Assembly (NCBI RefSeq): GCF_004364315.1
Contig: NZ_SOBR01000002.1
Span: forward strand, 310,001-374,000
Direction of reading: 5' to 3'
DNA length: 64,000 nt
Origin: Chromohalobacter marismortui
GTDB lineage: Bacteria > Pseudomonadota > Gammaproteobacteria > Pseudomonadales > Halomonadaceae
The position numbers and the translations under genes are program-made. Below are positions 3,704 to 15,334 of this stretch, in pieces. Under the pieces are notes generated by a model. It worked only from the letters and a program-made list of their open reading frames with translations, did not search any database and was not told the origin of the DNA. The first letter of the stretch is position 1. Every line of letters starts with the position of its first letter.

Positions 3704-3778
3704 TGGTGGGTCGTGTAGGATTCGAACCTACGACCAATTGGTTAAAAGCCAACTGCTCTACCACTGAGCTAACGACCC
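3704..3778 (-). tRNA. tRNA-Lys (anticodon UUU), copy 1
   Basis: The minus strand reads GGGTCGTTAGCTCAG at the 5' end, an anticodon loop CTTTTAA with anticodon UUU, the T-arm GGTTCGAATCC and an encoded 3' ACCA. Acceptor stem GGGTCGT pairs with ACGACCC. Length is 75 including CCA. The sequence is identical in all three copies. This is the last copy in transcription order, immediately before the terminator. Confidence 0.97.
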
Positions 3779-3783
3779 ATAAT

Positions 3784-3799
3784 CTGCCCACGTGGGCAG
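3784..3799. repeat. 16-bp perfect palindrome between tRNA-Lys copies
   Basis: CTGCCCACGTGGGCAG is fully self-complementary and fills most of the 34-base gap between tRNA copies 1 and 2. With no T-run on the minus strand it is unlikely to terminate; it could fold as a processing or stability element in the polycistronic tRNA precursor. Confidence 0.6.
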
Positions 3800-3812
3800 T
3801 CTAAGGCGGCAA

Positions 3813-3887
3813 TGGTGGGTCGTGTAGGATTCGAACCTACGACCAATTGGTTAAAAGCCAACTGCTCTACCACTGAGCTAACGACCC
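3813..3887 (-). tRNA. tRNA-Lys (anticodon UUU), copy 2
   Basis: Base-for-base identical to the copies at 3704 and 3944, with encoded CCA. The 34-base gap to copy 1 and the 56-base gap to copy 3 share no obvious sequence beyond each containing a short inverted repeat. Identity of all three suggests recent duplication or gene conversion. Confidence 0.97.
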
Positions 3888-3918
3888 GCCGCCGGGTCTT
3901 CGAGACAGACCATCGCAC

Positions 3919-3937
3919 CACGTCATTCAATGACGTG
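3919..3937. repeat. Short hairpin between tRNA-Lys copies 2 and 3
   Basis: CACGTCAT (3919-3926) is complementary to ATGACGTG (3930-3937) around a three-base loop. No T-run follows on the minus strand. Together with the palindrome at 3784 it means each tRNA spacer holds one compact stem, compatible with RNase processing of a shared transcript. Confidence 0.5.
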
Positions 3938-3943
3938 CGTCGA

Positions 3944-4018
3944 TGGTGGGTCGTGTAGGATTCGAACCTACGACCAATTGGTTAAAAGCCAACTGCTCTA
4001 CCACTGAGCTAACGACCC
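3944..4018 (-). tRNA. tRNA-Lys (anticodon UUU), copy 3 (first transcribed)
   Basis: Identical to the two copies downstream, 75 bases including encoded CCA, anticodon UUU. It lies 68 bases beyond the stop of rluB, which reads the same way, so the cluster could be read from rluB or from its own promoter in 4019-4086; I could not identify a clear promoter there. Confidence 0.97.
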
Positions 4019-5834: not shown

Positions 5835-6745
5835 CGGGGGTCCTCTTCGACATCGGCAAAGGCGCTTTCCCCGCCCTCGTCACCCTCCGTGCCGGCGGTG
5901 TCATCGACCGCCTCGGCCGCCAGCCGGGCACGCACATGAATCGGCGACAGCGGCGCGTTCTGCGCGATCTCGATCATCGCCTCTTTGGCCAGCTCGAGAA
6001 TCGCCATGAAAGTCACCACCACCCCCGCGCGCCCCTCCTCGAGCGTGAACAGCGCCTCGAAGGGCACGTAACGCTGGCCGTCCAGTTGCTCCATGATCCT
6101 AAGCATGCGCTCGCGTGTAGACAGCACCTCGCGGCTGATCTGGTGCGATTGCTGAAAGTCGGCGCGCTTGAGCAGGTCCGACAGGGCATGCAAGAGTTCG
6201 TCCAGCTCGACGTCGGGATGGATCACACGCGTCTCCAGGGTCGGCAGCGCGGCCTGCGCCGCCACCCAATCACGCCCAGCGCGCGGCAGTTCATCCAGCC
6301 CTTCGGCGGCCAATTTCAACTGCTCGTATTCCTGCAGGCGGCGGATCAACTCGGCACGCGGATCTTCGGCCTCCTCATCTTCGCTCTTGGGCGGACGCGG
6401 TAACAAGGTACGCGACTTGATCTCCGCCAGCATGGCCGCCATCAGCAAATACTCACCGGCCAGATCGATCTCCAGCGCCCGCATCAGTTCGACGTATTCG
6501 ATGTACTGATGCGTGATCGCCGCTACGTCGATGCCCAGGATGTCGAGATTCTGGCGCCGGATCAGGTACAGCAACAGATCCAGCGGCCCCTCGAAGGTCT
6601 CGAGAAAGACGCGCAACGCCTCGGGCGGAATGTAGAGATCTTCCGGCAACTCGGTGATGGGCTGATCGTGCAGGCGCGCCAACACCGCCGCTTGGGACGC
6701 GACCGACGCGGTATCGGCACTCACGGGCTCGGCGGTATCACTCAC
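5831..6745 (-). CDS. scpA: Segregation and condensation protein A ScpA
   Basis: ScpA is the kleisin that bridges SMC heads with ScpB. The N-terminal kleisin signature is clear: LETFEGPLDLLLYLIRRQNLDI, then ITHQYIEYVELM, LAGEYLLMAAMLAEIKSRTLLP, and the C-terminal winged helix with VVTFMAILELAKE. I start at a GTG at 6745 (304 residues) because AGGAGAG lies 8 bases upstream; the frame extends to an ATG at 6838, but the added 31 residues are Arg-rich and unlike the family. First gene of the scpA-scpB-rluB operon. Confidence 0.93.
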   Translation of the reverse strand: MSDTAEPVSADTASVASQAAVLARLHDQPITELPEDLYIPPEALRVFLETFEGPLDLLLYLIRRQNLDILGIDVAAITHQYIEYVELMRALEIDLAGEYLLMAAMLAEIKSRTLLPRPPKSEDEEAEDPRAELIRRLQEYEQLKLAAEGLDELPRAGRDWVAAQAALPTLETRVIHPDVELDELLHALSDLLKRADFQQSHQISREVLSTRERMLRIMEQLDGQRYVPFEALFTLEEGRAGVVVTFMAILELAKEAMIEIAQNAPLSPIHVRARLAAEAVDDTAGTEGDEGGESAFADVEEDPR

Positions 6746-6859
6746 GCGTAACGCTCTCCTCGACTGCGCCTCACGGCGCGACCTTCGACAAACGCGCAGT
6801 GTAGCAAGCCCGCCGGGGAGCGAACACGCCCCCGTCATGCAAGATATGTCGATGGATCG

Positions 6860-7975
6860 TCAGGCGCCCTCGGTCGTACGCGCAAAACGCCGGTAGGTAA
6901 AGTCGGGCACGCCCAAGGCATCGCGCACCGCCAAGGTCTGCACCTCGTCATGGTAGGGCGATTTTTCGCACACTGGGTCCATCTGCGCGGCATCACCGGT
7001 GAGCATCAGCGCCTGACAACGGCAGCCGGCCCAGTCGATTTCCTTGCGCTCGCAGCTCTGGCAGATCTCGGGCATCCAGTCCGTGCCGCGATAGGCGTTG
7101 AAGGCCGGACTGTCGTACCAGATATCGCCCAGCGCGTGATCTGCAACATTCCAGAACGCCAGGTGCGGAATCGTCTCCGCCGCATGGCACGGCAACACCT
7201 TACCCGAGGGCGTCACATTGAGGGATTGGCGCCCCCAGCCGTTCATGCAGGGCTTGGGTAGGCGCGCGTGGTAATCCGGGACCACGGCGTCGATGACCAG
7301 ACGCCCTTGCAGGCGCTCACGCCCAGCCTCAACCCGCTCGACAGCCTCCATGACCTGCTCGCGACTCGGCATCAGGGCGGCGCGATTGACCAGTGCCCAG
7401 CCATAGTACTGCGCATGGGCGATCTCCAGCCGCCGCGCTCCCAGTTCCACGGCCAGGTCCACGAAGTCGTCGATCTGATGCAGGTTGATGCGGTGGATCA
7501 CCGCGTTCAGCGTCAGCGGCAGTCCGACGGCCGTCACCTCGGCGGCGAAGGCCCGCTTGCGCGCATGAGCGCCGGTCATGTTGGCGACGTGATCGGTCAC
7601 CTCGGGCGTAGCGCCCTGAAACGACAGCTGGACGTGATCGAGGCCCGCCTCCGCCAGGGTCTCCAGCCGGGCACGGTCGATATTGACGCCCGCGGTGATC
7701 AGGTTGGAATACAAGCCCGCGTCCACGCAGGCCGCCACCAGCTCGGGCAAGTCGGGACGCAGCGCGGGCTCGCCGCCCGATAGATGGACCTGCAGCACGC
7801 CGAGCTCGGCGGCTTCGGCGAAGACCCGTCGCCAGGTCGCGGTATCCAGCTCGTGGCGGCGGCGCTCCAGGGCCACCGGATTGGAACAGTACGGGCACTG
7901 CAGGGGACAGCGATGCGTCAATTCCGCCAGCATCCCCATGGGCGGCTGCACGTCATGCGCTTGCGAATGTGTCAT
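6860..7975 (-). CDS. pqqE: PqqA peptide cyclase PqqE (radical SAM)
   Basis: 371 residues. PqqE is the radical SAM enzyme that forms the carbon-carbon bond between Glu and Tyr of PqqA. The radical SAM cluster site is CPLQCPYC (Cys23, Cys27, Cys30), followed by [14 protein letters not shown]. The C-terminal SPASM-type auxiliary cluster region holds many cysteines ([39 protein letters not shown]). The start at 7975 overlaps the pqqD stop (ATGA); an upstream extension of 31 residues is excluded by that coupling. Last gene of pqqABCDE; a pqqF/G protease is not present nearby. Confidence 0.96.
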
Positions 7976-10071: not shown

Positions 10072-10148
10072 CTAGCCATTGTCCGCTGCATCATCGGCCT
10101 TGCGGTAGCGTCCCGCGTAGTCGAAGAGCTTATCGCGGATCTGCCAAT
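10072..10148 (-). pseudogene. Displaced 3' end of radD
   Basis: The minus strand reads [20 protein letters not shown] followed by ADNG and a TAG stop at 10072-10074. The first 20 residues are identical to the RadD C-terminus encoded at 13142, which then ends DAS. Three of the four base differences between the copies are synonymous; the fourth changes the residue before the Trp. There is no start codon or ribosome site. It reads as the original last codons of radD, separated from the gene by the 3-kb islet. Confidence 0.85.
10088..10148. repeat. 61-bp direct repeat, distal copy (att-like)
   Basis: Matches 13149-13209 at 57 of 61 positions in the same orientation. Similarity starts at GCATCATCGGCCTTGCG and stops abruptly after CTGCCA. 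The two copies bracket the MOSC/amidotransferase/MocR islet like attL/attR, although no integrase is present between them. Confidence 0.85.
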
Positions 10149-10205
10149 GAATGGCATGGCCACTCCTATCCACGTGGCAGGCAACATCGAGCTAAGCATA
10201 GCTGA

Positions 10206-10883
10206 CTACCGACTATAGAGGCGGGGGTTCCAGTTTTCGACTTGGCGCTTTTGCAGCCTTTTCGACGCGATCTTGCGCCACGAGTCGGATAAGCCTTCGA
10301 GACCGGCAATGACACTCAGAACATCAAAATTGAGAGTATCGACATAAAGTGAATGCCAGATACGGTATAATGTCCATTCTGGGCTTGGGCTATCCAGCTT
10401 GATCAGCGTATCACTACACCCCACCATCCCCGGCTCAAGCACTCTGTAGTACCATCCCGTACGACCGGAGTTCTGCAGTCGCAACGCCATATCCGAGACG
10501 CCAAAGCGTAAATTCAGCTTCCAACAGGGTTGCCGCCCCTGTGAAACTTGCAAAGTCGCCTCACCAAGACGAAAAATATCACCAACAGCGACCGTATGTT
10601 CCAGTAAGCCTATTGTGGATAAGTTCTCACCAAAAGCTCCCGCTGAGCGCAACACAGATAGGTTGCCGAGTTCGTGTTGCCAAGTAGCGTAGTGTTCAAA
10701 TGGATAATGATGAACCGCTTTCTCTACGCCGCCATGAAGCCGACGATCAGCTTGTTCATCAACCTCGAATCCTTCCCAACCCAAGTAGCAGGCATCTGTC
10801 ATGGGCGTTTTGGCAATGGCACTGGTTTTGTCGCTGCCACTTAATAACGTAGCACGACCTGTCAGAACAGTTACCTGAGTCAT
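10206..10883 (-). CDS. MOSC domain protein, YiiM-like
   Basis: 225 residues. MOSC proteins bind the molybdenum cofactor; E. coli YiiM is reported to reduce N-hydroxylated bases such as 6-hydroxylaminopurine. Landmarks are TSAIAKTP near 20-27, DEQADRRLHGG near 42-52, AFGENLS at 83-89, GDIFRLGEATLQVSQ, and QPCWKL with Cys120 as the expected Mo ligand, then the helical 3-alpha C-terminal domain (WHSLYVDT, LSVIAGLEGLSDSWRKIASKRL). The ATG at 10883 overlaps the amidotransferase stop as ATGA, so the two are coupled. Within the AT-richer islet. The substrate is not known from sequence. Confidence 0.88.
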   Translation of the reverse strand: MTQVTVLTGRATLLSGSDKTSAIAKTPMTDACYLGWEGFEVDEQADRRLHGGVEKAVHHYPFEHYATWQHELGNLSVLRSAGAFGENLSTIGLLEHTVAVGDIFRLGEATLQVSQGRQPCWKLNLRFGVSDMALRLQNSGRTGWYYRVLEPGMVGCSDTLIKLDSPSPEWTLYRIWHSLYVDTLNFDVLSVIAGLEGLSDSWRKIASKRLQKRQVENWNPRLYSR

Positions 10884-11581
10884 GAAGAGAGTCCTGCTAG
10901 CCAATCTCGTAGTAGCTTCTGCCCCGCCTCTTTGAGCAGAGAAGCACTTAGAAGAGCTTGCTGACGCAGATTTTGAGGTGAGATATTCGCTCTTGCCAGC
11001 TCAAGCGTATGGCCGATCAACCACCGCTCGAAGCCATCTGCCTCCACTTCCGGATGAAACTGTAAGCCCATCAGCGTATTCCCCACGCTAAATCCCTGAA
11101 CCGAGCAAACATCCGTCGCAGCCAGAACCGTTGCCCCCTCAGGCAACGTAAAGCGCTCACCATGCCAGTGAAGTACTGGCACCCCCTCAAGATGCTTCAA
11201 CGGCCCTAAGTAACCGGCAGATGAAAGTGAAAGCGTCTTGAAGCCAATTTCCACTCGTGGCTGAGGCAGGACTTCTCCACCTAAAGCTTGAGCCATCAGC
11301 TGCGCTCCTAGACAAATTCCGAGCGTAGGCATGCCCAGCTCCAAACGCTTACGCAAGAATCGCTGGGTTTCGCAAAGGAAAGGATAACCCAGCGTATCGT
11401 TAACACTGATTGGGCCACCTAGAACTATCACCAAGTCCGGAGCCAAGGGGTCGCGATTATCAAGCTCGACAACGCCGTTATCTATGTATTCCAAGGTATA
11501 GTCGGCAGACTCAAGAACACTTTTCCAGTGCCCAAGATCCTCGAATGAGACATGGCGCAGTATGAGTGCAGTGCGAGACAT
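10880..11581 (-). CDS. Class I glutamine amidotransferase-like protein
   Basis: 233 residues, a stand-alone GATase1 domain resembling the GMP-synthase amidotransferase half and E. coli YfeJ. The catalytic triad is visible: Cys90 in GICLGAQLMAQALGG, His176 and Glu178 in QFHPEVEADGF; the oxyanion region is VIVLGGPISVND. No synthetase domain follows, so the acceptor is unknown; it may hydrolyse a gamma-glutamyl substrate. I start at 11581 (MSRTALILRH) because an in-frame ATG at 11623 falls inside the operator-like inverted repeat. Coupled to the MOSC gene and divergent from the MocR regulator. Confidence 0.85.
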   Translation of the reverse strand: MSRTALILRHVSFEDLGHWKSVLESADYTLEYIDNGVVELDNRDPLAPDLVIVLGGPISVNDTLGYPFLCETQRFLRKRLELGMPTLGICLGAQLMAQALGGEVLPQPRVEIGFKTLSLSSAGYLGPLKHLEGVPVLHWHGERFTLPEGATVLAATDVCSVQGFSVGNTLMGLQFHPEVEADGFERWLIGHTLELARANISPQNLRQQALLSASLLKEAGQKLLRDWLAGLSS

Positions 11582-11618
11582 GGAAGCGATCCATTGCGAA
11601 TTTGCGTTGAGTCTAGGA

Positions 11619-11673
11619 GGCATCTGGCCTGATGATAAGTGCCAGTTTTCAAATTTTCACTAGGCCAGATGCC
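11619..11673. promoter_or_regulatory. Inverted repeat between amidotransferase and mocR genes (putative operator)
   Basis: GGCATCTGGCCT (11619-11630) and AGGCCAGATGCC (11662-11673) are perfect 12-bp inverted arms separated by 31 bases, centred in the divergent promoter region; the right arm ends 8 bases before the mocR ATG. Between them, on the minus strand, TGAAAA and TATCAT are 16 bases apart and could be the promoter of the amidotransferase operon. Operator function for the adjacent MocR protein is inferred from position. Confidence 0.6.
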
Positions 11674-11681
11674 GAGATCGT

Positions 11682-13145
11682 ATGTCGACTATCACCTTTT
11701 CATTAGACTTAGACGGCAATAGCCAAGCACCTCTTTTCCTAGTCATTGCCAAGGCGGTTATCCGTGATATCCGGAGTGGACGCCTGCCACCTCAAACACG
11801 ACTTCCCGGGACACGGACGCTAGCACGTCAACTAGCAGTTAACCGCAATACTGTCGATGCCGCTTATCAGGAATTAATCGCTCAAGGCTGGGCCGAGACT
11901 CTCCCCGCTAGTGGAACTTACATCTCGCGGGATCTGCCGCAGAGCAGCGAGCCACCTGAACCATCTCATTCAGTACAGGCTACGCAGAATGCTTCCGTCT
12001 CATCACCGACGCCTTCTCTCTCATTCAATGATGGCGCTCCCGATACACGGTTGGTGCCATCGAAGGCATTGGCGCGGGCATTCCGGCGCGCCGTGATACG
12101 CCCTGACTTCCAACAGCGTTCGGATTACCAAGATGGGATGGGTAATGCAGCCTTGCGCCAAGCACTGTCCGATTACTTGACCTCACATCGAGGTAAGCAT
12201 TATGCCGCCGACCACATCCTAGTGACCCGCGGTAGCCAAATGGCCCTTTATTTATCGGCTAGAACACTTCTGTCGCAGGACGACGCCATCGCTATGGAAG
12301 ATCCTGGCTATCCGCAGGCTCGAGAAGCTTTTCTCGCCACAGGTGCACGCGTTATCGGTATACCGGTTGACGATAAGGGGATCTGCATTGAGTCGTTGGA
12401 GCACGCTTTGAACGCTAATCCTGAAATACGCGCGGTCTATATCACGCCACACCATCAATATCCCACGACGGTGACCTTGGGAGCTGCCAGACGCCTTAGG
12501 CTTTTAGAGCTAGCCCGGCGATACGACCTTGTTTTGATAGAGGATGACTACGATCACGAGTATCATTTTGAAGGACGCCCGGTTCACCCAATAGCCTCCA
12601 TGGCCAACGAGAACGAGCAAATCATTTATATAGGGTCTCTTTCCAAATTACTCAGCCCGGGAATCAGGGTGGGGTACGTCCATGCACCACCCAATCTACT
12701 AGATCCCATGCTGGAAGTGAGGTCAATCATTGACCGTCAGGGTGACATCCCCCTTGAAATGGCGATTGCCGAGCTAATGGCGAATGGTGAGCTGGCACGC
12801 CATACGAGAAAGAGTCGCCAGCTGTACCGTGCCCGCAGAGATATAATGGCCGATAATCTTCATGCTGCATTCGGCAAAACAATAGACTTCAATCTTCCTA
12901 CAGGTGGCCTGGCCATCTGGCTGCGTCTTCCCCGCGACGTCGACATATGTAGCTTGGCACATGAAGCTGAGCAACAGGGGTTATCCGTTACTCCAGGAGA
13001 ATATTTCACCGTGGATGTCATGCCACCGCGTGCATTCCGGCTCGGGTATGGTGCCCTCGACAACACCCAGATCCAGGAAGCCGTAAAAGTGCTCTCCAGC
13101 GCGTACAGACAAGTTCGCTTTGAATCGTCAAGCTTAAGCCCTTAG
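11682..13145 (+). CDS. MocR-family regulator (GntR HTH fused to aminotransferase-like domain)
   Basis: 487 residues. Residues about 14-82 form a GntR winged helix ([50 protein letters not shown]). After a Ser/Pro-rich linker the fold-type I aminotransferase domain runs to the end, with [23 protein letters not shown] at 287-294 and the PLP lysine Lys322 in [15 protein letters not shown]. Such proteins sense PLP or a PLP-reactive amine and usually control a divergent neighbour, here the amidotransferase-MOSC pair. Its stop overlaps the radD stop by three bases on the opposite strand, marking the islet edge. AT-richer codon use than radD. Confidence 0.92.
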
Positions 13146-14965
13146 CTCGCATCATCGGCCTTGCGATAGCGCCCCGCGTAGTCGAAGAGCTTGTCGCGGA
13201 TCTGCCAGTAACGCCCCACCTTGCGACCGATCACGAAGTCCGGGGCCTTGAGACGCCGCTCGTCGGCGATCACCGCCTCGGGCGAATCCGGCCGCCAGTC
13301 GCTGCCCGGCGCCCGCAGGTGATGGCGCAGAAAGGCCAGCGTGAAGGCGCGACGCTGCGCGGCAGTTTCCAGCGCGAACCATTCGTCGAGCGTGGCACCG
13401 TCTTCGTCATGGTAGGTCACTTTCAGGCGCGGCAGCCCGCGGCCATTGGTTACCGCCTGTAACTGCATCCCCGAGACGCGCAGCACCTTGGCTTCCTTGA
13501 GGCGCAGCGCAGCCTTGAGCTTGTCGTCGGGATCGACCAGTCGCTCGTCGCATTGATGGCAGGCGCGCGCGGCGATGTCGTTTTCCGCGCCGCACTGATC
13601 GCAGACCTTGAAGCGAAAACGAAAGTCGCACTGCCGGCGCCGTCCGTCCGTGTCTTCCAGCAGGCCTTGGCAGCGACGGCCGTAATGTTCGATGACCAAC
13701 TCGCCATCGCGCTTGCCCCAGAACAGATTGGCATGCCCGCATGCCGGACATTCGACCTGCACCGGTTCGGCATCGGAATCGGGCCGGGGCTCGCCGACCT
13801 CCGGCGCATACAGGTCCCAGGGATTGCCCGCATAATCGAGGATCAGGCAGTCCTGCTTGCCCGGCGCCAGGCGCAAGCCGCGCCCGACGATCTGCTGATA
13901 CAGGCTGACGGACTCCGTGGGCCTCAGGATCGCGATCAGATCCACGTGCGGGGCATCGAAACCGGTGGTGAGGACCGCCACGTTGACGAGATACTTCAAC
14001 CGCTGCGCCTTGAAGTCCTCGATCAGCGCTTCGCGCTCCCGCCCCGGCGTCGCGCCCACGATCAGCGCCGCCTGCTGCGCCGGCAGATACCCCATGATTT
14101 CACGCGCGTGCGCCACCGTGGCCGCGAAGATCATCACGCCGCGCCGCTCGCGGGCCTGCTCGACGACCTCGGCGATGATACCCGGCGTCGCCCGGTGCCC
14201 CTGCACGACGCGGTTCAGTGCCTCTTCCTCGAAGCCGCCGCCGCGACCCGGCGACAGCCGCGAGAAGTCATACCGGGTCTGCTCGCCATCTTCGGCATAC
14301 AGTGCGGCATCCACGCGCCGGGGCGGCGCCAGATACCCCTGCTTGACCATCAGCCGCAGTGGCTGCTCGAACACGCAGTCCTGAAAGAAGCAATCCGCAT
14401 CGCCGCACACCATGCCGTGGTGATGACGGTGGTAGATGAAGCCTTGTCCCAGACGATACGGCGTCGCCGTCAGGCCCAGCACCTTGAGATGCGGGTTGTG
14501 GCGCCGCAGGTGTGCGATCACCTGATGATAACTCGACGCGCCCTTGTCCTCCCGGACCTTGCCCGCCGACGCCCCCGGCGGAATGCGGTGGCACTCGTCG
14601 ATGACCAGCAGAGTGAACGCGCCCCACGCGTCGTGGGCCTCGAAACGTGCCAGGCTCCTGACCACGGACTGCACCGAACCGAAGACCACCTGACGCTCGC
14701 TCTCCTTGCGCCCCAGACCGGCACTGAACAGGTCCGCCTCCAGTCCATAGGCGCGGTACTTGGCATGGTTCTGCTCGACCAGCTCCCGAACGTGCGCCAG
14801 CACCAGGACCCGGCCGCGTGCCAGCCGTGCCAGCTCGGCGATGACCAGCGACTTGCCGCTGCCGGTGGGCAGCACCACCACGGCGGGATCGTCGCCGCGC
14901 CGGAAATGCGCGATGACGTTATCGACGGCCTGATGCTGGTAGGGGCGAAGCGAGGGCGCGCTCAT
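13142..14965 (-). CDS. radD: DNA repair helicase-like ATPase RadD (YejH)
   Basis: 607 residues from the ATG at 14965. RadD is an SF2 protein that interacts with SSB and acts in double-strand break repair and RecA-dependent recombination. The first lines match E. coli YejH closely: [10 protein letters not shown], Walker A PTGSGKS at 33-39, DECH at 123-126, [53 protein letters not shown]. Residues beyond about 380 hold zinc-type CxxC pairs ([31 protein letters not shown]). Its last codons are duplicated at 10072-10148, so the present end (DAS) was probably supplied by the islet; the older end seems to have been DAADNG. Confidence 0.95.
13149..13209. repeat. 61-bp direct repeat, radD-attached copy (att-like)
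   Basis: Second member of the pair with 10088-10148 (four mismatches). It encodes the C-terminal residues of the intact radD. Identity ends four bases before the radD stop codon, close to where the mocR gene ends. Confidence 0.85.
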
Positions 14966-15124
14966 GCGGGACATCCACGGGCAAAAGGCGAATGTTAGCA
15001 TCGCCGACAAGGCCACGGGGTCGATCAATGCCTTGATCTTGGTGCCGGGCGCCCCGACTTGATAAGTACAACGCAATGTCACGATGATCTCGAATCACGG
15101 CAACACCAACTCTCAGGAGGTCCC

Positions 15125-15334
15125 ATGCAAGCCCCCACCAGCCCCGATTGTCCCGAATGCGGCAGCCGCGCCAAGCGATTCCCGCCCGGCCGCGAAGGGC
15201 AGTACCATGTCTTCTGCGAGGATTGCGGTCATGACTTCGGACGCTACGACCGCCTCGTCGCGGACTATCGTCATGCTCTCGAAGAACTGGAGTCGCATCT
15301 CGAGACCTCCCCCGGTGCCTCGCGAGACGCCTGA
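15125..15334 (+). CDS. Small CPxCG/zinc-ribbon protein of unknown function
   Basis: 69 residues starting at an ATG with AGGAGG exactly placed at 15115-15120. Two cysteine pairs, CPECG and CEDCG, separated by about 24 residues (RAKRFPPGREGQYHVF), form a probable zinc ribbon; the rest is an acidic helix (DRLVADYRHALEELESHLE). The frame is open further upstream but lacks a ribosome site there. It is divergent from radD and precedes a monooxygenase-like gene by 48 bases. I do not recognise a named family; a small regulatory or chaperone-type role is only a guess. Confidence 0.75.
   Translation: MQAPTSPDCPECGSRAKRFPPGREGQYHVFCEDCGHDFGRYDRLVADYRHALEELESHLETSPGASRDA

Follow-up and report, generated by a model that had tools for sequence, protein, structure and literature searches.

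A three-gene islet between two copies of the radD 3' end in Chromohalobacter marismortui: a candidate non-autonomous integrative element

Why does the end of radD, the gene of a DNA repair helicase, occur twice in the genome of Chromohalobacter marismortui? We analyzed a 64-kb stretch of this genome (G000), called the window below, with all positions numbered within it. The last 61 bases of radD (13149-13209) recur in the same orientation at 10088-10148, with 57 of 61 bases identical, and three intact open reading frames (ORFs), encoding a MOSC-domain protein, a glutamine amidotransferase, and a MocR-type regulator, lie between the two copies. The original prediction, made from the letters of the window, had seen here an element inserted at the 3' end of a gene and restoring that gene. 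We favor, at a probability of about 0.52, a reading in which the 3,061-bp unit is a non-autonomous integrative cargo islet flanked by attachment (att) sites and working like a cis-mobilizable element (CIME). CIMEs are decayed relatives of integrative and conjugative elements (ICEs) and of integrative and mobilizable elements (IMEs).

A mechanical repeat search recovered the pair as 10088-10146 and 13149-13207, with 95% identity over 59 nt and a start-to-start spacing of 3061. It is one of four families of direct repeats of at least 45 nt in the window, the remaining three being three tRNA-Lys genes, which stand in tandem at 3704-4018, and two diverged families with at most 75% identity. The radD frame is open in both copies; the gene copy ends in KADDAS-stop and the detached copy in KADDAADNG-stop, and three of the four differences between them are silent in radD. 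The G+C content, measured in 1-kb steps, is ∼0.64 on both flanks and 0.51-0.54 over 10-13 kb. Thus, the AT-richer islet between radD-end repeats was borne out as originally described, and so was the detached copy that keeps the frame, ends in ADNG-stop, and differs from the gene mostly by synonymous changes.

To see how the site looks elsewhere, we compared ten genomes of the genus, that of the window and nine congeners. In eight of the nine congeners, the site is empty: radD is followed directly by pqqA and pqqB (pqqA was identified by eye), the three genes are absent, and there is one copy of the repeat. In G009, whose RadD protein is the nearest among the congeners (98% identity), the regions that match the left and the right flank of the islet overlap by 62 bases, forming a single uninterrupted radD end. 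In G007, by contrast, the islet is present at this site, accompanied by a detached radD end of that genome. The ends of the islet correspond in the two genomes, with [AG]GC-TAA-GGG next to radD and GTGGRTAGGAGYGGCCATGCCA ahead of the detached repeat. The radD C-terminus is KADEAG in G007 and KADDAS in G000. In the family as a whole, a match to the radD end was found in 264 of 275 genomes, and two matches only in G000 and G007. Comparison of the radD-pqqA interval, which the original prediction had proposed, therefore yielded empty-site strains and not three genes inherited vertically beside radD. Together with the filled site in G007 and the allele pattern described below, which spans one repeat period, this supports insertion at the gene end.

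Some further features of the islet borders were noted. The stretch between the MOSC gene and the detached repeat (10149-10205 in the window, ∼5737-5836 in L034, the G007 locus) differs between G000 and G007 by two gaps, one of 42 bases and one of 4 bases, while the adjoining repeat is nearly unchanged. Between pqqA and pqqB of G007, inspection by eye revealed a transposase-like insertion (L034, ∼6080-7150). A 9-base inverted match between the islet ends, reached in 10 of 1000 shuffles, is incompletely kept in G007 and was dropped as a possible transposon end.

The origin of the two copies can be followed at variable sites of the repeat, which we numbered from TGGCAG in the radD sense. At positions 15 and 42, T and C are found in G005, in both G007 copies, and in the detached copy of G000, while C and T are found in the gene copy of G000, in G009, and in six further congeners. 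From position 56 on, the detached copy is of the G009 type at most sites. The features involved are as follows.

13142-14965, minus strand: radD, encoding the DNA repair helicase RadD/YejH, intact (NF053632, 878 bits, cut-off 720; ATG at 14965, ORF 13142-15082).
13149-13209, minus strand: gene-borne repeat copy (attL-like), which agrees with G009 and six further congeners in its alleles at repeat positions 15 and 42.
10088-10148, minus strand: detached copy of the radD 3' end (attR-like), a hybrid with positions 1-42 of the G005/G007 type and, from position 56, a mainly G009-type tail ending in ADNG-stop.
13153-13165, minus strand: candidate exchange interval of 13 bases, CGCAAGGCCGATG in the radD sense, placed by mapping of single-nucleotide polymorphisms (SNPs); its counterpart in the detached copy is 10092-10104.

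Outside the repeat, alleles derived in G005/G007 are rare in G000, being found at 1 of 10 sites in the 1.5 kb to the left, which include the gene copy, and at 2 of 32 sites in the ∼1.2 kb that follow the repeat to the right. Alleles derived in G009 are found in G000 at 29 of 34 sites on the left and at 30 of 34 on the right. In the right flank beyond position 190, the G005/G007 type is represented by G005 alone, as G007 is interrupted there. The excess of G005/G007 alleles in the repeat (2 of 2, against 3 of 42 elsewhere) has a Fisher p = 0.011, and the probability of two out of three random changes falling on precisely these two alleles is 2e-4 to 7e-4 under simple assumptions. Since G005/G007 alleles stand at the start of the detached copy and the G009 type after them, the transferred unit seems to span a single repeat period (3,061 bp) that begins within positions 43-55 of one copy and ends within the same positions of the other; the two SNPs would place the exchange inside these 13 bases.

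The claim that the detached copy is the former gene end can thus be kept in part. The portion after position 55 resembles the former native end, but at least the first 42 bases, of the G005/G007 type, probably arrived with the islet. A gene-end swap by homologous recombination, which had been named as the main alternative, fares worse: under it, the gene copy should be foreign and the detached copy native, but both informative sites show the opposite.

If the islet is indeed a CIME-like unit, one of its ends would carry a duplicate of the 3' end of radD that serves as attachment sequence. One reciprocal exchange between this copy and the chromosomal radD end, probably inside the 13-base interval, would insert the cargo, provide radD with a new, equivalent C-terminus (the KADDAS or KADEAG end), and push the old C-terminus downstream, where it would become the detached copy. 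At least the last 11 bases of radD, ending in the KADDAS stop, would then derive from the islet side. The reverse exchange would empty the site. Repeats, empty and filled sites, the complete cargo module, and, from two SNPs, the hybrid detached copy of G000 are observed; the circular intermediate, the single exchange, the direction of transfer, and a former integrase are inferred from them. A single exchange between a circle and the chromosome gives the whole allele pattern at once; with a linear donor, two exchanges would both have to fall in these 13 bases. As the islet has no recombinase, it would be either a stripped remnant of a larger element, CIME-like, with the integrase lost or acting from elsewhere, or a unit whose repeats are exchanged by host recombination. 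A stronger version, which we regard as rather unlikely, is a mobile cassette with neither its own recombinase nor that of a dedicated partner. In that case, the repeat alone would let a 3-kb circle leave and enter other chromosomes at radD by host recombination, and the coding constraint on radD would keep the repeat usable over species time.

The cargo between the repeats is encoded by the following features.

10206-10904, minus strand: MOSC-domain protein, YiiM-like with the 3-alpha domain (PF03473, PF03475; NF008577, 189 bits, below the equivalog cut-off of 294).
10880-11623, minus strand: class-I glutamine amidotransferase of the PRK07053 type (PF00117; NF005458, 283 bits, cut-off 250).
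11619-11673, no strand assigned: divergent control region containing a perfect inverted repeat of 12 bases, GGCATCTGGCCT/AGGCCAGATGCC, a probable MocR operator.
11682-13145, plus strand: MocR/PdxR-type regulator with GntR and aminotransferase domains (PF00392, PF00155; NF052282, 370.6 bits, cut-off 320).

The islet is one complete module of a divergent MocR-type regulator, an amidotransferase, and a MOSC protein, and almost nothing else. The radD and mocR genes are convergent, with overlapping stop codons (13142-13144 and 13143-13145). In the control regions of 24 relatives, we found the blocks TAGGCC (24/24), GCCAGT (21/24), and CTGGCC (16/24), with all three present in 14. The same blocks surround the 12-base inverted repeat at 11619-11673 in the window, which is probably the operator of MocR, and the module is probably self-regulated. 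YiiM-type MOSC proteins reduce N-hydroxylated bases; a role of the islet in detoxification is a guess by analogy. A PADLOC search for defense systems with the three islet proteins yielded no match, and a literature search for MocR, the MOSC domain, and glutamine amidotransferase together yielded no report.

No close relatives of the cargo were found in the family outside G000 and G007. Among the 275 family genomes, relatives of the amidotransferase (E <= 1e-60) were found in 25 further genomes, all at 45-52% identity, and the MOSC protein at E <= 1e-80 was found in one of 369 genomes of the class, G000 itself. In a collection of 84,980 species, the MocR relatives had at most 57% identity among the best 80 of 133 found; the scan, which relied on exact 8-residue patterns, may have missed relatives with 60-80% identity. 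In 28 of these best 80 MocR loci, the arrangement of the islet (MOSC, amidotransferase, MocR) is preserved in gene order and orientation, with identities of 47-63%; in L123, one of the 28, a gap of 1.9 kb precedes mocR. All three genes were present in 31 of the 108 loci examined, that is, in these 28, in the window itself, in G007, and in one scattered case. The names of 27 of the 28 loci are those of organisms that we take to be Alphaproteobacteria, and the exception, L104, is labelled Marinicella. In L135 and L137, contigs of metagenome-assembled genomes labelled Salinicola and Erythrobacter, the MocR and amidotransferase pairs have nearly equal spacing and identity, and one of the labels may be a binning error.

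Phages and plasmids were considered as sources. A phage source of the amidotransferase was rejected, with no relative in viral contigs and 27 phage records, all below 60% identity. A plasmid source of the whole islet was rejected as well, the best DNA matches covering at most 13%. The MocR protein had 2042 plasmid matches, all below 60% identity.

We then considered how long the islet has been in the genus. Between G000 and G007, synonymous divergence (dS) is 0.23 in mocR, 0.25 in the MOSC gene, and 0.47 in the amidotransferase gene, as compared to 0.33 in radD, 0.34 in pqqB, 0.32 in pqqC, 0.37 in pqqE, and 0.60 in a small gene beyond radD. The ratio of nonsynonymous to synonymous divergence (omega) is ∼0.15 in the islet genes and 0.07-0.11 in the core genes. 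With dS similar to that of the core and low omega, the islet alleles have been in the group about as long as the species and are under selection. Between G005 and G007, dS is 0 in pqqC and pqqE but 0.26 in radD, and a part of the pqq operon, as judged from these values, is recently exchanged between the two lineages. Similarly, between G000 and G009, dS is 0.06 in pqqB and 0.30 in pqqC. This pattern of divergence points to strong recombination in the radD-pqq region.

Several results weigh against a CIME-like islet. Domain and family profiles found no recombinase among its three ORFs, in agreement with the absence of an integrase noted originally. From the 264 family genomes with a radD-end match, 40 with long contigs were read as far as 8 kb beyond the gene (3.5 kb in one of the 40). 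No integrase was found at radD in them, the one in G066 sitting 3.1 kb away; with a second radD end in just 2 of the 264 genomes, radD is no evident integration hotspot. A dyad search in the repeat revealed nothing notable: the best result, 6/11, is not unusual for radD, in which values reach 9. Two SNPs carry the whole allele argument, and the G005/G007 type is only local: over the whole of radD, dS of G005 is 0.263 to G007, 0.261 to G000, and 0.242 to G009. At tail positions 68 and 72, where the outgroup alignment is poor, the detached copy has G005/G007 alleles. Over 55 bases, the two G007 copies show no difference, and both have a T at position 21 that is absent from G005; this shared T calls for gene conversion or coincidence. 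Between the detached copies of G000 and G007, 2 of 55 sites differ, which is not significantly fewer than in the spacer between mocR and the amidotransferase gene (5/58, p = 0.24). Finally, one old insertion followed by losses would equally give core-like divergence of the islet.

The same two of 55 differences are fewer than at synonymous sites of mocR (P 5e-4) and of the MOSC gene (3e-4). Special conservation of the detached copy as a sign of an attachment function was considered on these grounds and dropped after the comparison with the spacer.

The search for an integrase or an element elsewhere that recognizes the 61-bp site, also proposed in the original prediction, came back empty: no ICE, IME, or other element using this radD end was found in the limited samples of relatives, viral contigs, phages, and plasmids. 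Viral contigs had no match to a 22-base degenerate pattern of the repeat and one radD relative at 33% identity, found with peptide patterns that do not cover the repeat. Phages had one 31-base match (E 0.08). Plasmids had four matching records, and the best of them, a Halomonas record, looks like an ordinary radD. An integrase profile built from 22 integrases had one match in 110 loci, at tRNA-Lys in G066, where the integrase gene stands beside a tRNA-Lys pair ∼3 kb past radD. Tyrosine recombinase matches number 75 in the ten genomes of the genus; the six in G000 are all on contigs other than that of the window, and no class confined to G000 and G007 was seen in a weak comparison by length and score alone. 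Two of the G000 frames, at G000:C14:82-573 and 14654-15145, are short (201 and 243 aa), have near-equal scores and opposite orientation, and one is at the contig start; this pair is possibly a separate mobile element. A single literature search on radD as an integration site and in connection with genomic islands revealed no evident report.

Of the other explanations, the one that survives best, to which we give clearly less than an even chance, is a minimal mobile element. The islet would have entered the genus once, by any route, and would now move between strains by homologous recombination in the conserved flanks alone, with the empty sites produced by deletion between the 61-base repeats and the hybrid detached copy by later flank replacements ending inside the repeats. 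Such movement does not require a recombinase, and it agrees with the strong recombination in the region (the dS contrasts of pqqC and pqqE with radD and of pqqB with pqqC) and with the resemblance of islet and core divergence. It also agrees with detached copies no more conserved than the spacer, and with the shared T at position 21 in G007, which suggests gene conversion between the copies. However, two separate exchanges are required, one per copy, in the same 13 bases and with little donor-type flank on either side. When the flanks of G000 were tested for this, they were mainly of the G009 type up to the repeats, in a frequently recombining region.

Homology-facilitated illegitimate recombination seems improbable to us. 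Here, a linear fragment with radD and the three genes would have come from a relative, with homology at radD and a microhomology joint at the opposite side, and the native radD end would have been duplicated. The process is described, in parts of PMC5361080 and PMC3240628, as inserting DNA beside a homology anchor, and is proposed there to shift old genes or gene ends downstream. The GCCA microhomology with the G009-type radD at the right joint would fit, as would the radD tail of the islet, which resembles other tails of the family, e.g. KADSAG. Still, this process should make the gene copy foreign and leave the detached copy native, contrary to positions 15 and 42, and no donor with this gene order is known, the amidotransferase having at most 52% identity elsewhere in the family. 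Hence this route is disfavored for G000, yet it may account for the first insertion in an ancestor. Vertical inheritance or chance, with the three genes as old neighbors of radD and the second radD end as a duplication relic or a coincidence, could draw on the long residence implied by purifying selection on the islet genes, but can hardly be upheld given the absence of the islet beside radD in most congeners, the few and distant amidotransferase relatives, the composition shift, and the high in-frame identity of the copies.

Small cargo-only islets are easily mistaken for frozen accidents. The site is filled in two of the ten species compared and empty in eight; together with the allele break in the repeat, this suggests that an islet of this kind can be handed on as a precise unit with no visible mobility gene. 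The 3' end of radD would be a possible new integration target, and the islet would bring a complete MocR-amidotransferase-MOSC module with a likely operator into a family where close relatives of it were found only in two congeners.

Among known systems, the classical CIMEs of S. salivarius are close in structure. As far as they are described in part of PMC7563491, they are 1.2-13 kb long, carry cargo genes, retain their att sites, occupy gene 3' ends, and lack genes for recombination and transfer. Like them, the islet is small, has cargo and no integrase or transfer genes, and is framed by att-like direct repeats at a gene 3' end with a precise empty site in most congeners. Unlike them, it has no ICE or IME with this target found, and none in tandem. 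Hence we liken it to CIMEs by structure and do not file it as one.

The duplicated gene end resembles that of prophage e14 in icd, where, according to a portion of PMC11148124, 165 bp of the gene end are duplicated with 12 changes and the frame is kept. In both cases, the integration site lies within a coding gene, close to the 3' end; the frame is restored by the element, and a duplicated gene end is left on the other side. However, e14 has an integrase and phage genes, while the islet has only three metabolic-type genes and a 61-bp duplication with four changes. Phage 21 integrates at icd in the same manner as e14.

The minimal mobile elements of Neisseria consist of cargo between conserved genes, present or absent depending on the strain, with no mobility genes. 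The islet, too, is strain-variable cargo between two conserved genes and has no mobility genes. Those elements exchange via conserved flanks, though, whereas the islet is framed by a direct repeat and the transferred unit apparently ends within the repeats.

Finally, in type VI secretion system and Rhs loci, old genes or gene ends are displaced downstream, for which a section of PMC5361080 proposes homology-facilitated illegitimate recombination. New cargo pushes an old gene end downstream in these loci and at radD alike. There, the new end is a different effector; here, the old and new ends are nearly identical, and the foreign and native copies are reversed.

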